Assembly (NCBI GenBank): GCA_943788755.1
Contig: CALSRM010000003.1
Location: 1,116,001-1,180,000 of the forward strand
Direction: 5' to 3'
DNA from: an uncultured Flavobacteriales bacterium
GTDB lineage: Bacteria > Bacteroidota > Bacteroidia > Flavobacteriales_D > Parvicellaceae
Length of the DNA: 64,000 nucleotides
A program made the translations under genes and the position numbers. Below the pieces are notes generated by a model. The model saw nothing but the letters and a program-made list of their open reading frames with translations, did no database searches and had not been told where the DNA came from. Shown piece by piece: positions 1 through 3,109 of this stretch. Numbering within the stretch: position 1 is the stretch's first letter; each line of letters starts with the position of its first letter.

Positions 1-439
1 TTCCTCCTACTATACCATCACCGCAGCCACCGCCACCGCCAGAAATGTATGCAATTGTGCTTGTGTTTCCTGAAGTAGCTGTAGCACACCCAGGCCCACA
101 ATCCAATGTGTAATGCACATAATATGTTCCACTTGTAGCAGCTGTCCATTGCAAAGGCGATGGACCAAAAACAACAACCGGCCCTGCAGATGAACCACTC
201 GTTATCGTAATACAACCACCAGCACCATATGCAGATTCATATGTTGTACCAGCAATAACGCTGTTAATCGTACTATATTCAGTCTGATATTGGATTGAGC
301 TAATGGTAACAGAACCAGATGTCGGAGCTGTAGCGGTACCATAAGAAGTTGTGTTAATACATTGAGCGGAAACGTTATTGCTAAACAAGTTTAAACAAAC
401 TATAGTTATAATTGAAAAATTTCTTTTTAATAAAGTCAT
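1..439 (-). CDS. Secreted protein, N-terminal part (runs off left edge)
   Basis: Reading leftward from an ATG at 439, an open frame continues without stop to the window edge (146 codons). The first ~24 residues form a signal peptide (basic MTLLKRN start, hydrophobic core, cleavage after NVSA before QC). The mature part is rich in Ser, Thr and Gly, with short beta-strand-like stretches, two cysteine pairs and a Gly-rich run near the edge, as in Bacteroidota surface proteins exported by Sec and often T9SS. The C-terminus, where a sorting domain would lie, is outside the window. It starts 33 bases after the preceding secreted-protein gene on the same strand and is probably the last visible gene of the sigma-factor operon. 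No family recognised. Confidence 0.7.
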   Translation of the reverse strand, partial: MTLLKRNFSIITIVCLNLFSNNVSAQCINTTSYGTATAPTSGSVTISSIQYQTEYSTINSVIAGTTYESAYGAGGCITITSGSSAGPVVVFGPSPLQWTAATSGTYYVHYTLDCGPGCATATSGNTSTIAYISGGGGGCGDGIVGG

Positions 440-472: not shown

Positions 473-988
473 TTAATCAACTATTATATAACGATGTGCA
501 TTATCAAGAACATATTGCTTTTTTTCTGCAGGCAGTTGGTCATATTCTTCTCTTGGCATTCTAATAGCGTTTAAATCATTCTTTGGGGCTTTGAAACTAA
601 CATTTTCAGAAAGTGCATAAACCGCTTTCCACTCGACGAAATTACCTCCGTTTCTATATACAATATATTTTAAATCATCCACCGTGACAAAACCATGAGC
701 AATAATTACAGTATTAAAAACTCCATTTACTTCGGAAGTAGCGCAAGACTTTATTTTCAATTGATTATTCTTTAATAAAAGATGGTCAAAACTTTCGGAT
801 TGTGAGCGTTTTTCTATGTTAATGTTTTTAAAAGAATAGACTACGTATATCCCTTCAAATTCCTGTATTTGCAATTTTTGATTTTGTCCCATTCGATGCT
901 CCACATCTTTATGGACAATTTGCGTTTGGGAGTAAAATACATTTGTTAATAGCAACAAAATGAGGGTAATAGGTGTAATTTTCATCAT
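473..988 (-). CDS. Unknown secreted protein, 171 aa
   Basis: Starts at ATG 988 (a second ATG follows at once). A signal peptide is clear: MMKITP, then a Leu/Ile core, ending FYSQ at about residue 20. The mature ~150 residues contain one internal Cys (KSCAT), mixed beta-type segments and a charged C-terminus (REEYDQLPAEKKQYVLDNA) that may be helical. No lipobox, TM segment or sorting domain is seen. It lies 13 bases downstream of the PKD-domain membrane protein and 33 bases upstream of the next secreted-protein gene, all on the minus strand, so co-transcription with the ECF sigma factor is likely. I do not recognise the family; a periplasmic accessory role in that operon is inference only. Confidence 0.75.
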   Translation of the reverse strand: MMKITPITLILLLLTNVFYSQTQIVHKDVEHRMGQNQKLQIQEFEGIYVVYSFKNINIEKRSQSESFDHLLLKNNQLKIKSCATSEVNGVFNTVIIAHGFVTVDDLKYIVYRNGGNFVEWKAVYALSENVSFKAPKNDLNAIRMPREEYDQLPAEKKQYVLDNAHRYIIVD

Positions 989-1001
989 AACGTAAAGTTT
1001 T

Positions 1002-2327
1002 TTATTTCAATAACAGCACAGCTCCTTTGTATTGTTCTGTTATTCCTTTTTCATTTGTTAGTTTAACAACCCAAACATAACTTCCTTCGGTACATTTTGT
1101 TCCGGCTTTTTGATTTGTTCCATCCCAAGGTTGGTTAACGTTTTTAGTTTCATATACTAGGCCTTCATTAGGACTGTAAACGGTCATTGTAAATGTTCCG
1201 TCCAATCGGTTAATTGCCGCAGGTAAAAAGTGATCATTTATTCCATCCCCATTTGGGGTAAATGAGTTAGGAGCTAATAAGTTGTAATCCTGATTAACAA
1301 ATATACTTTTATTTATGGAACTTATACAACCTTCAATGTTAGAAACTTCTAGAGAGATTAAAAACTGTCCTTTCTTTCGGTAAGTATAATTTGGGTCTTT
1401 CTCAATTGAGAGAGATCCATCACCGAAATTCCAATTCCATGAAGTTCCTTTGTCGGTAAGATTTATAAATGAAGTGTAAGGAATTCCGTTTTCTTCATTC
1501 ATTTCCCAATCGAATTGTACGTTTGGTTTTGCATGAACAATTAATAGTTGGTCATTAGATCGAGTCATAATTGAATTATCAATTTTAGACCTTACTATTA
1601 AGCTAATATTATAACTGCCTGGGCTTGTAAATAAATGTGAAGGCGTTTCGTTTTTGCTGTAATTACCATCATCAAAACTCCATAGATAGTCAATGTTGTT
1701 TTGTTTTTCGGCTACAAAATCAATAGTTGTTCCTTCACAGCATTCAAAAGTGTTCATATGAAATGCTGCTTTTTCCAGGATTATAATTTCCTCAGTAATA
1801 ATATTGTCTTCCTTTGAAGCTTCATCATCAGAAGGTGTAAACCCGTTCTCTTCGGAAATGGTGGTTTCTTCAGAATTTTGGGGTTTAACCTCTTTGTTGT
1901 CTGATGTTATGGTTTCACTCTTATTATTTTTATTTTCTTCATTAAAGTTAGTTTCTTCTTTATTACTAATTTCTTTTTCAGCATTAATAAAAACCTCTTT
2001 TACCTCATTGTTTTCTTCCTCAGCCAACAGATTAGCTATAGAAGATTCGTTATTGACAATTTCATCTTTTGTTAATTCATTTCCTTGTGCAGGGATCGCA
2101 ATTGTATTTTGTTCAGTTGCAGCATTAAACATAGAGACAAGATATACTGTCCCTATTACAGCAGCTATTGAAGCAGCTATAAACCAAGGGGAAGAATAAA
2201 AGGGTTTATTCGCTTGGTCTAACTTCTTATTTAATTTATCCCAATCACTCGAATCATAAACCGCCCTTTGTTTGTCCAAAGAGGATTTAATAAGTGATTC
2301 AAAATTGTCTAATTGATTATTTTTCAT
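1002..2327 (-). CDS. Single-span membrane protein with PKD repeats and type-B T9SS-like CTD; putative anti-sigma/sensor
   Basis: 441 aa in four parts. Residues 1-45 are charged and helical, with no signal peptide. A TM segment (~47-66, WFIAASIAAVIGTVYLV) has Lys before and acidic residues after, giving N-in topology. About 70-185 is a Glu/Asn/Ser/Lys-rich low-complexity linker. Two PKD-like domains follow (~190-345; WSFDDG and WNFGDG motifs), then a C-terminal domain of the gliding-motility/type-B kind (SFTPNGDGIND, about residues 355-441). The start codon overlaps the stop of the ECF sigma gene by four bases (ATGA), so the two are translationally coupled, as sigma/anti-sigma pairs usually are. 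The inner-membrane anchor combined with a T9SS-type CTD is unusual. No FecR or zinc anti-sigma motif is seen, so the anti-sigma role is inferred from topology and coupling. Confidence 0.85.
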   Translation of the reverse strand: MKNNQLDNFESLIKSSLDKQRAVYDSSDWDKLNKKLDQANKPFYSSPWFIAASIAAVIGTVYLVSMFNAATEQNTIAIPAQGNELTKDEIVNNESSIANLLAEEENNEVKEVFINAEKEISNKEETNFNEENKNNKSETITSDNKEVKPQNSEETTISEENGFTPSDDEASKEDNIITEEIIILEKAAFHMNTFECCEGTTIDFVAEKQNNIDYLWSFDDGNYSKNETPSHLFTSPGSYNISLIVRSKIDNSIMTRSNDQLLIVHAKPNVQFDWEMNEENGIPYTSFINLTDKGTSWNWNFGDGSLSIEKDPNYTYRKKGQFLISLEVSNIEGCISSINKSIFVNQDYNLLAPNSFTPNGDGINDHFLPAAINRLDGTFTMTVYSPNEGLVYETKNVNQPWDGTNQKAGTKCTEGSYVWVVKLTNEKGITEQYKGAVLLLK

Positions 2328-2887
2328 AATCTATTTAATTTATCAGTAAGCATTGTTTTCATATTTGCCTTTGCTTTTGCTAAGTTTGATTTAGAAGTCC
2401 CGATATTAATTTCTAATTCATCAGCTATCTCTTGATGAGTATAACCTTCCATAACATATAAATTGAACACTGTTTGATACGCTGGAGATAAGCTTTGCAT
2501 AGCTTCAACAATATCATTTATTGAAAGCCCTGCATATTCAGATTCACTTTCCATATCCTCCCAGTCGCTGTTATCCTTAATTCGAGATTCATCGTCAATA
2601 AAAACTTCTTTCTTGTTTTTACGATATGCATCAATAGCTGTGTTGACGATAATTCGTCTTACCCAACCTTCGAAGGATCCTCCGACATTGTACTGTTCAA
2701 TTTTTTCAAAGACCTTAATGAAACCATCCTGTAGCATATCTTTTGCTTCGTCTGTGCTTCTTGCATATCTGTAACAGACAGGAAGCATTTTACTATAAAG
2801 CAACTCATATATTTTCTGTTGAGAAGCTCTGTTTTTGGCTTTACAGCCATCTACAATTCTTTCCAGCTCTCTCTGCTCTAGTTTCAT
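2324..2887 (-). CDS. ECF (sigma-70 family) RNA polymerase sigma factor
   Basis: 187 aa, the normal length for an extracytoplasmic-function sigma factor. Region 2 spans about residues 20-95 (core-binding YARSTDEAKDMLQDGFIKVF, then WVRRIIVNTAIDAYRK for -10 recognition). Region 4 spans about 125-180, with a helix-turn-helix (MEGYTHQEIADELEI followed by GTSKSNLAKAKA) for -35 recognition. No extra C-terminal domain. It is the first gene of a minus-strand operon and overlaps the downstream PKD/CTD membrane protein by four bases. It is divergent from mdh, with 222 bases between them. The region-4 motif GTSKSNLAKAK is typical of Bacteroidota ECFs. The target regulon cannot be read here; autoregulation of its own operon is likely but not shown. 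Confidence 0.95.
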   Translation of the reverse strand: MKLEQRELERIVDGCKAKNRASQQKIYELLYSKMLPVCYRYARSTDEAKDMLQDGFIKVFEKIEQYNVGGSFEGWVRRIIVNTAIDAYRKNKKEVFIDDESRIKDNSDWEDMESESEYAGLSINDIVEAMQSLSPAYQTVFNLYVMEGYTHQEIADELEINIGTSKSNLAKAKANMKTMLTDKLNRL

Positions 2888-3109
2888 TTTAATTCTCCCT
2901 TATGACGATATTGTTTATGCATGGTTGCCATTTGATATAAGTTTTTTTTGGGGGCTATGCAACTGTTAAAATAATGGCGTGCTAAATTAAAAAGCAACTA
3001 CAATAATAATGTAGAAAACCAGAAAAACAATGGTTAAACCGGTTTACTTTTATTAATTTTGACGCTCAATATTTTTGATGAATAATTATAAAAACAAAAT
3101 ATAACAAAT

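Follow-up and report, generated by a model that had tools for sequence, protein, structure and literature searches.

Architecture of the locus

The stretch of DNA analyzed here (the window) comprises 64,000 nucleotides from an uncultured Flavobacteriales bacterium (assembly GCA_943788755.1, contig CALSRM010000003.1, positions 1,116,001 to 1,180,000). Near its start it carries a gene for an extracytoplasmic function (ECF) sigma factor, followed by a gene for a membrane protein, referred to below as the partner, whose far end resembles the C-terminal domain (CTD) of cargo of the type IX secretion system (T9SS) and which is probably the anti-sigma factor of the pair. The features of this pair are as follows:

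2904..2929, minus strand: GGCAACC-N15-CGTC, an ECF-type promoter element recognized by conservation ahead of the sigma gene; putative autoregulated promoter
2324..2887, minus strand: ECF sigma factor, 187 amino acids (aa) (Sigma70_r2, Sigma70_r4_2, TIGR02937)
1002..2327, minus strand: putative CTD-tailed anti-sigma factor, 441 aa (open reading frame (ORF), domain scan, model and homology)
2190..2327, minus strand: residues 1–46, putative cytoplasmic anti-sigma domain of two helices (model and homology)
2118..2189, minus strand: residues 47–70, transmembrane (TM) helix (hydrophobicity and model)
1764..2117, minus strand: residues 71–188, acidic periplasmic linker, helical at 95–133 and otherwise disordered (model)
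1533..1763, minus strand: residues 189–265, PKD domain 1 (Pfam and model)
1293..1532, minus strand: residues 266–345, PKD domain 2 (Pfam and model)
1005..1280, minus strand: residues 350–441, T9SS type-B-like CTD without (R/K)WG (Pfam and alignments)

The sigma protein matched Sigma70_r2 and Sigma70_r4_2 of Pfam, both over the cut-off, and its ORF shares four bases, ATGA, with that of the partner; this overlap and the ORF coordinates had been given in a preliminary description of the locus and were both recovered here. The order of modules proposed there (an N-terminal segment inside the cell, one TM helix, two PKD domains and a CTD) was also borne out by the Pfam scan and by an AlphaFold2 model of the partner (38 sequences). 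In particular, Pfam placed PKD stretches at residues 196–250 and 291–333 and CHU_C, the type IX secretion signal domain, at residues 352–437, with 54.5 bits against a cut-off of 27. The score with TIGR04131, the type-B sorting domain, lay near its threshold of 35 (32.4 bits in the protein scan and 35.1 in the genome search). The T9SS-type CTD of the preliminary description was thus recovered; a detail beyond that description is that it lacks (R/K)WG, a motif found in ordinary cargo CTDs.

In the AlphaFold2 model, helices were predicted at residues 6–20 and 26–39, followed by the TM helix at 47–70, which includes the hydrophobic maximum (residues 49–67), and by a further helix at 95–133. Values of pLDDT below 50, indicative of disorder, were found solely at residues 71–94 and 135–183 within the linker, and the block means of PKD1, PKD2 and the CTD were about 80–97. 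The linker had been described as acidic, of low complexity and about 115 residues long; its length and acidity were confirmed, whereas the stretch 95–133 is predicted to be helical. The N-terminal segment of 46 residues runs into the TM helix in place of a Sec signal peptide, as judged without a signal-peptide program, and scans of Pfam and NCBIfam gave no match to a FecR or zinc anti-sigma family at E ≤ 1, in agreement with what had been claimed on these points. Among the matches listed in a fold comparison with the PDB, the best were the PKD-like tandem domains of the Aureispira grappling hook protein, and none specific for the CTD was seen. In sequence searches with the partner, the top matches after its orthologues were the C-termini of large proteins.

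Conservation of the sigma/partner pair

A search for the sigma factor in 60 relatives returned a match in 51 of them (E ≤ 1e-20), and the neighborhoods of 29 loci, and then of 107 more, were fetched for a table of next genes. A FastTree phylogeny, which came with long-branch warnings, was built for 164 sigma factors (27 from a sample of the phylum), 157 of which were labelled by partner type. Here, 41 sigma factors formed clade A, with a starred support of 98, and our case rests on this clade. The partner was of the CTD type in 39 of 39 determinable cases, 38 called by a model and one (L114) by eye; the two other sigma factors sit at contig ends, and the interrupted partner frames of the near relatives L004, L005, L091 and L120 were kept apart from this count. 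A search for broken pairs in related genomes, as suggested in the preliminary description, thus found the pairing intact in every determinable case of the supported clade, those interrupted frames aside. Two of them belong to one member of the genus, G002, which holds two copies of the sigma/anti-sigma locus (L091 and L120), with the anti-sigma frame interrupted in both.

A second CTD group, with a CTD in 28 of 30 determinable partners, lay within a weak open fork (81) that also includes the long non-CTD partners L174 and L179 and one undetermined row; ‘clade B’ denotes its 28 CTD rows. The other labelled sigma factors had partners that were either long without a visible CTD or short. These labels (‘barrel/long’ for 290 aa or more with no CTD seen, and ‘short’) refer to length, with Pfam barrel families in part of the long rows, and eight rows labelled long run off the locus with the C-terminus out of view (L234, L239, L241–L244, L248, L254). 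Repeats, broken frames and distant sigma factors were excluded from the tree (L003–L005, L084, L085, L087–L089, L091, L120, L227, L228); L002 is the same place as L082, and L086 and L090 yielded no sigma row. At least three changes of the CTD label were needed on this tree, with only one forced by starred branches, so that the CTD partner may have had a single origin or several.

With Pfam at E ≤ 0.01, CHU_C was detected in 34 of 38 clade A partners and in all 29 proteins of a set made up of the 28 of the second group and L118 of clade A, whereas the families listed for 61 non-CTD partners, 17 in all, did not include it. In the phylum sample, the 29 new loci with the best scores included two from the same order, both with CTD partners; among the 27 from outside the order, a CTD was found in none of the 18 complete partners, one locus had no partner ORF and eight ran off the locus. 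The pairing of this sigma factor with a CTD partner is beyond chance and recurs through the order.

An N-terminal domain shared with partners of different far ends

The N-terminal segments of clade A partners and of long non-CTD partners aligned with an hhalign probability of 97.8 (E ~1e-12), against values below 0.5 for all three column-shuffled controls. Similarly, the clade A N-terminal profile matched 32 of 47 long non-CTD N-termini (E ≤ 0.01) and none of the 47 when reversed. W29 was invariant in the 38 aligned clade A partners, and the segment is also homologous to the N-terminus of short sigma partners. The far ends attached to it differ: the 61 non-CTD partners included 10 with OMP_b-brl and 7 with OMP_b-brl_2 (Pfam, E ≤ 0.01). 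Three sigma/partner pairs are present in the genome itself, namely the locus under study, L082 of the second CTD group and the long-tailed L083, whose orthologue in the genus, L190 (651 aa), scored over the cut-off for OMP_b-brl_2.

These data bear on whether the partner is an anti-sigma factor at all, since a TM-anchored PKD-CTD protein of the surface or periplasm could merely be co-transcribed with the sigma gene. The failure of all characterized anti-sigma families to match at E ≤ 1 would fit such a protein. Nevertheless, we regard this explanation as very improbable, given that the two genes overlap in 33 of the 40 clade A loci with a partner ORF and that the N-terminal domain is common to partners of other sigma factors with wholly different far ends and is duplicated in two partners. 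It also sits poorly with a layout that matches that of the Dma proteins, which are described, in the accessible part of the report, as repressors of their sigma factors (PMC13088901).

The duplication is a tandem repeat of the N-terminal motif in the partners L112:63-1484 and L113:2099-3517, and could allow binding of two sigma molecules or of two faces of one. Short partners of about 190–200 aa, which have a TM segment but lack an outer module, were seen in L178, L182, L187, L188, L191, L194, L203, L205, L208, L211 and L216, the loci of a further group of related sigma factors. A partner of 748 aa is encoded at L204:1337-3583, and we take it to be the single scanned partner in which Pfam found a YfbK/von Willebrand factor A architecture. 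The long-tailed partner of L083 (L083:1938-2756 onward) is split into several frames, in contrast to the single frame of L190:663-2615.

The linker between the TM helix and the first PKD position had a median length of 112.5 residues in clade A (range 81–135, n = 38) and of 126 in the second group plus L118 (range 80–151, n = 29), and was thus near-constant in length and highly variable in sequence. A linker of about 115 residues would have a contour length of approximately 40 nm, sufficient to span a periplasm, as the preliminary description had supposed.

The CTD as an altered cargo tag

CTDs of 39 clade A partners and 28 second-group partners were aligned with 83 other cargo CTDs, selected by likeness to the partner. 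The tryptophan of (R/K)WG was present in 82 of the 83 independent cargo CTDs and in none of the 67 anti-sigma CTDs, and a search for the [RK]WG pattern without alignment gave 77/83 and 0/67, respectively. In a further 41 CTD proteins from stretches around clusters and promoter sites, after removal of smaller ORFs with certain starts as possible anti-sigma factors, the motif was counted in 37 from the listing. Cargo and anti-sigma CTDs agreed at most conserved positions other than this tryptophan: within clade A, F356, W401, G403 and G435 were kept in 39 of 39 CTDs and the GDGxND positions in 67–82%, with a degenerate GDGxND stretch in some members. The anti-sigma end thus looks cargo-like, judging from these alignments, except at one position that is seldom lost from cargo. 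Secretion of the SprB CTD requires every one of five type-B motifs, according to the available part of that study (PMC12618676), and (R/K)WG probably corresponds to one of its motifs A–E. The alteration counts against plain export of the anti-sigma CTD.

The same features could be read as those of an anti-sigma factor whose PKD-CTD end is a periplasmic sensor of envelope stress or misfolded cargo and never docks on the T9SS. A lost (R/K)WG, a TM anchor where cargo has a signal peptide and the degenerate GDGxND of some clade A members all lean that way. We nonetheless consider it unlikely, since the remainder of the type-B CTD has been kept, the neighboring and co-marked genes described below encode T9SS cargo and a PorP/SprF shuttle, and an outer-membrane barrel forms the far end in part of the related pairs.

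A conserved element upstream of the sigma genes

All 42 clade A upstream regions (the 41 tree members and the near-copy L120) contained [GA]GCAAC[CT]-N14/15-CGT[CT], starting 32–47 bp before the sigma start, compared with 0.0005 elements per region in shuffled upstreams. It was found in 0 of 28 second-group and 0 of 64 other sigma upstreams (0/92). An AAC box followed by a CGT box is the form of ECF promoters, and the GGCAACC-N14/15-CGTY element of clade A would presumably be read by the clade A sigma factor itself. Many second-group rows instead showed a different element, TGCAACCTTT...aGTCT. Its strict pattern gave five sites in six genomes, four of them at sigma genes of the group itself and the fifth (L365) without a gene nearby, and no cargo was seen downstream of second-group pairs in the short stretches examined. 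The proposal for targets was restricted to clade A.

Candidate target genes

Exact copies of the clade A element elsewhere precede genes for large type-B CTD proteins, and a gene whose small product looks secreted often intervenes. In the genome itself, one such site is followed by a 131-aa gene and the gene for a CTD protein of 2745 aa, and another by a 121-aa gene and a giant gene with a frame break and a CTD at its end. Cargo was likewise found behind the element in G002 and G003 (2023–2101 aa), G004 (1307 and 1363 aa), G010 (1100 and 1431 aa), G017 (746 and 1244 aa) and G032 (1249 aa). Across nine genomes, 7 of 34 exact sites other than those of the sigma genes themselves are followed by a gene, or a pair of genes, that includes type-B CTD cargo, where about 1.5% of genes would be expected (binomial P ~5e-7, with gene numbers estimated from genome size). 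This figure replaces that of a first test on four chosen genomes (7/22, P 4e-8), and counts as misses ten sites that were left unread (four in G004, three in G054 and one each in G015, G041 and G053). The seven sites all lie in four genomes of the same family (G000, G003, G004 and G010).

In ten genomes, from the genus and two related genera, the pattern totalled 42 sites against 15 in the reversed control, and a looser pattern gave 17 against 13 in the genome itself. Pattern totals alone were not used beyond these three genera. Several sites fall inside ORFs. Among the sites without cargo were C2:218024 of the genome itself, followed by a 1236-aa protein without a type-B CTD, as well as C3:1574935 (PqiA-like), C3:895326 and C4:186885. 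In G004, site 1134089, followed by a small gene and a 668-aa protein with no CTD match, was scored as a miss, and no suitable gene follows directly after site 3319743.

The gene cluster downstream of the pair

Two further features of the window continue the cluster beyond the anti-sigma gene:

473..988, minus strand: small 171-aa protein whose start resembles a signal peptide; third in the cluster, separated from the anti-sigma gene by 13 bp
2..439, minus strand: 5′ end of a giant gene, which starts at 439 and continues outside the window

The order in the genome is sigma, anti-sigma, the 171-aa protein, the giant gene, a 114-aa protein, a 600-aa CTD protein, PorP/SprF, a 138-aa protein and a 949-aa CTD protein. 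The giant gene is present in several reading frames in the assembly, the last of which ends in a CTD (L341:8956-16764), and the PorP_SprF gene (L341:5500-6567) lies on the same strand, downstream and several large genes away from the pair. In a survey of 20 of the 41 clade A loci, covering up to 20 kb downstream, same-strand CTD cargo followed the pair in 11 (G000, G001, G003, G004, G015, G022, G038, G044, G049, G054 and G056). PorP_SprF was confirmed with Pfam in the clusters of three genomes. Besides the PorP/SprF protein of the cluster, the genome itself encodes 18 others of the PorP family that score over the family cut-off.

Proposed function of the pair

The most economical reading of these results is a Dma-like anti-sigma factor that has a T9SS tag as its outer-membrane end and is placed over cargo genes, an arrangement that would make the synthesis of cargo depend on how the T9SS or its shuttle is faring. 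It seems probable that the partner is such a trans-envelope anti-sigma factor, with a cargo-like end that reports the state of the T9SS or the outer membrane and thereby controls cargo genes. Mimicry of a T9SS substrate by the far end of an anti-sigma factor, already put forward as an idea in the preliminary description, is well supported by the N-terminal homology, by the element before cargo genes and by the cluster of cargo and PorP/SprF.

In such a mechanism, residues 1–46 would retain the ECF sigma factor on the cytoplasmic side, residues 47–70 would anchor the protein in the inner membrane, and the linker would cross the periplasm. The PKD-PKD-CTD module may dock at the outer membrane on parts of the T9SS, most likely the PorP/SprF-family shuttle or the translocon, and docking, undocking or pull would alter the grip on the sigma factor. 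Once released, the latter would transcribe its own cluster and further genes for large CTD surface proteins through GGCAACC-N14/15-CGTY, as the conservation and position of the element suggest, so that cargo synthesis would be matched to the state of secretion or surface anchoring. Loss of (R/K)WG could let the anti-sigma CTD be recognized like cargo without being passed on. A more specific version, which we put forward tentatively and consider possible, if on balance doubtful, is that this disarmed cargo tag, with its RWG erased, occupies the T9SS or the PorP/SprF shuttle when cargo is absent, and in this way adjusts transcription of the genes for giant surface proteins to the secretion capacity that is free. 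This would be an FlgM-like logic exerted through a two-membrane tether, and a dedicated feedback between cargo and the T9SS in Bacteroidota of this order.

FlgM, of flagella, is a small soluble protein that is exported whole. Like FlgM, the partner would couple sigma activity to export capacity; unlike FlgM, it is anchored in the membrane. A closer analogy would have the CTD exported via SprA and the anti-sigma factor pulled, cleaved or depleted, with the sigma factor freed when the T9SS is idle. The cargo-like PKD-PKD-CTD end, the cargo genes behind the same promoter element and a linker whose contour length would be sufficient are compatible with this. Set against them are the TM anchor without a cleavable signal peptide, the missing (R/K)WG and the fact that proteolysis is not evidenced, and we judge such a release to be quite unlikely.

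Several observations weigh against the proposed docking and control of cargo genes by a Dma-like anti-sigma factor. Firstly, as (R/K)WG is missing and all five motifs are needed in SprB, the CTD may never engage the T9SS. Clade A CTDs are weak in L111 and L115, and that of L114 was missed by the CTD model. Furthermore, in 3 of the 20 loci surveyed (G002, G009 and G037) the stretch read holds a giant gene without a CTD, and 6 (G006, G010, G040, G041, G053 and G059) lack CTD cargo downstream; where there is such cargo, several hundred bases separate the anti-sigma gene from what follows in some loci (e.g., in G001, G038 and G049), which makes a single transcript uncertain. No cargo was found behind the sites read in three other families, comprising three in G038, one in G041 and two in G054. 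Here, no suitable gene follows directly after G038 C5:961528, G041 C1:494886 and G054 533736 and 533816, while G038 C5:35054 is followed by a 145-aa protein and G038 C1:579093 lies about 190 bp before a 387-aa gene read as a member of an efflux cluster. Pattern totals in an eight-genome set were 35 against 31 in the reversed control, so that outside the genus and the two related genera many single sites are due to chance, and the regulon is a candidate one. Co-occurrence with the T9SS was also considered as support and set aside: SprA (TIGR04189) is present in 58 of the 60 relatives, and therefore cannot discriminate within the order.

Comparison with known systems

The locus bears on how bacteria match the production of very large T9SS cargo to export capacity. 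The pair described here heads a cluster of surface-protein genes, and the cell may tune its surface-protein production to its ability to export. The locus suggests a testable circuit, with a defined promoter element, candidate targets and, as its sensor, a CTD of cargo type with a change in one motif. The Dma family was reportedly founded in a 2024 PNAS paper.

The available part of a report on Dma proteins describes a layout of anti-sigma domain, TM helix, disordered tether and beta-barrel (PMC13088901). The family was delimited here by an adjacent sigma gene, an N-terminal sigma-binding domain with one TM helix, a long disordered tether, a C-terminal beta-barrel and a sigma factor of ECF21. 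The pair resembles Dma of Bacteroides in its adjacent sigma gene, putative N-terminal anti-sigma domain, single TM helix, long tether and C-terminal module presumably directed to the outer membrane, and its N-terminus has long, partly barrel-ended homologues in the same genome, genus and order (Bacteroides Dma1 itself lay outside this comparison). It differs in that PKD-PKD and a T9SS type-B-like CTD replace the beta-barrel, and in its likely targets, which are T9SS cargo and not the vesiculation or polysaccharide-utilization genes of Dma. As its C-terminal module departs from the Dma definition, the partner was not filed as a Dma protein, although it is similarly built. The locus also suggests that Dma-like anti-sigma factors can exchange their outer-membrane end, a barrel giving way to a secretion-system tag, and hence that trans-envelope anti-sigma factors may form a modular family.

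As far as the accessible portions of the following papers go, three other systems are related in part. In Porphyromonas gingivalis PorA/PorXY-SigP, as in the proposed circuit, a CTD protein influences an ECF sigma factor acting on T9SS genes, and feedback from the secretion state has been proposed; in contrast to the role proposed for the partner, PorA is not an anti-sigma factor but a surface protein of its own, with a two-component system as its presumed route of action, and SigP controls T9SS components where the targets suggested here are cargo (PMC7712824). Type-B CTD proteins bind PorP/SprF-like proteins (PMC9143113) and, in the cases tested, depend on PorP/SprF shuttles for secretion (PMC12618676). 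The partner shares with SprB/SprF type-B cargo a C-terminal CHU_C-type CTD and genetic linkage to a PorP/SprF gene, and is distinguished from it by a TM anchor near the N-terminus where cargo has a signal peptide, a putative anti-sigma domain and the missing (R/K)WG (PMC9143113, PMC12618676). The SM6 sigma-ECF promoters of Flavobacterium psychrophilum also have T9SS genes and an ECF sigma/anti-sigma pair among their targets; these include T9SS core genes, and a CTD on the anti-sigma factor goes unmentioned in the part available (PMC9723704). In a literature search of titles and abstract openings, with most subscription papers outside it, no anti-sigma factor with a T9SS CTD was described.

Other observations

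In three genomes of the genus, the element stands before a gene for a PqiA-like membrane protein (L306:136, identified with Pfam, and L307:158 and L308:128, by likeness), and an envelope gene may thus be among the targets, in addition to cargo. In G010, G023 and G032 the element (L311:137, L318:159 and L320:1830) occupies a similar place and has no obvious gene after it; each of these sites lies just past the 3′ end of a convergent gene, the product of which is small and looks secreted, and points toward that gene, perhaps marking a small or antisense RNA. The 171-aa protein of the cluster has two homologues in the genus (L324 and L325, 48–49% identity), each with its own copy of the element. 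The broken frame of L083 and, likewise, the broken giant gene of the cluster reflect either assembly errors or decay. Finally, a gene read as gyrB lies near the locus in 6 of the 20 loci surveyed (L341:204-2162, L343, L348, L354, L355 and L360), which suggests that the position is old and stable.

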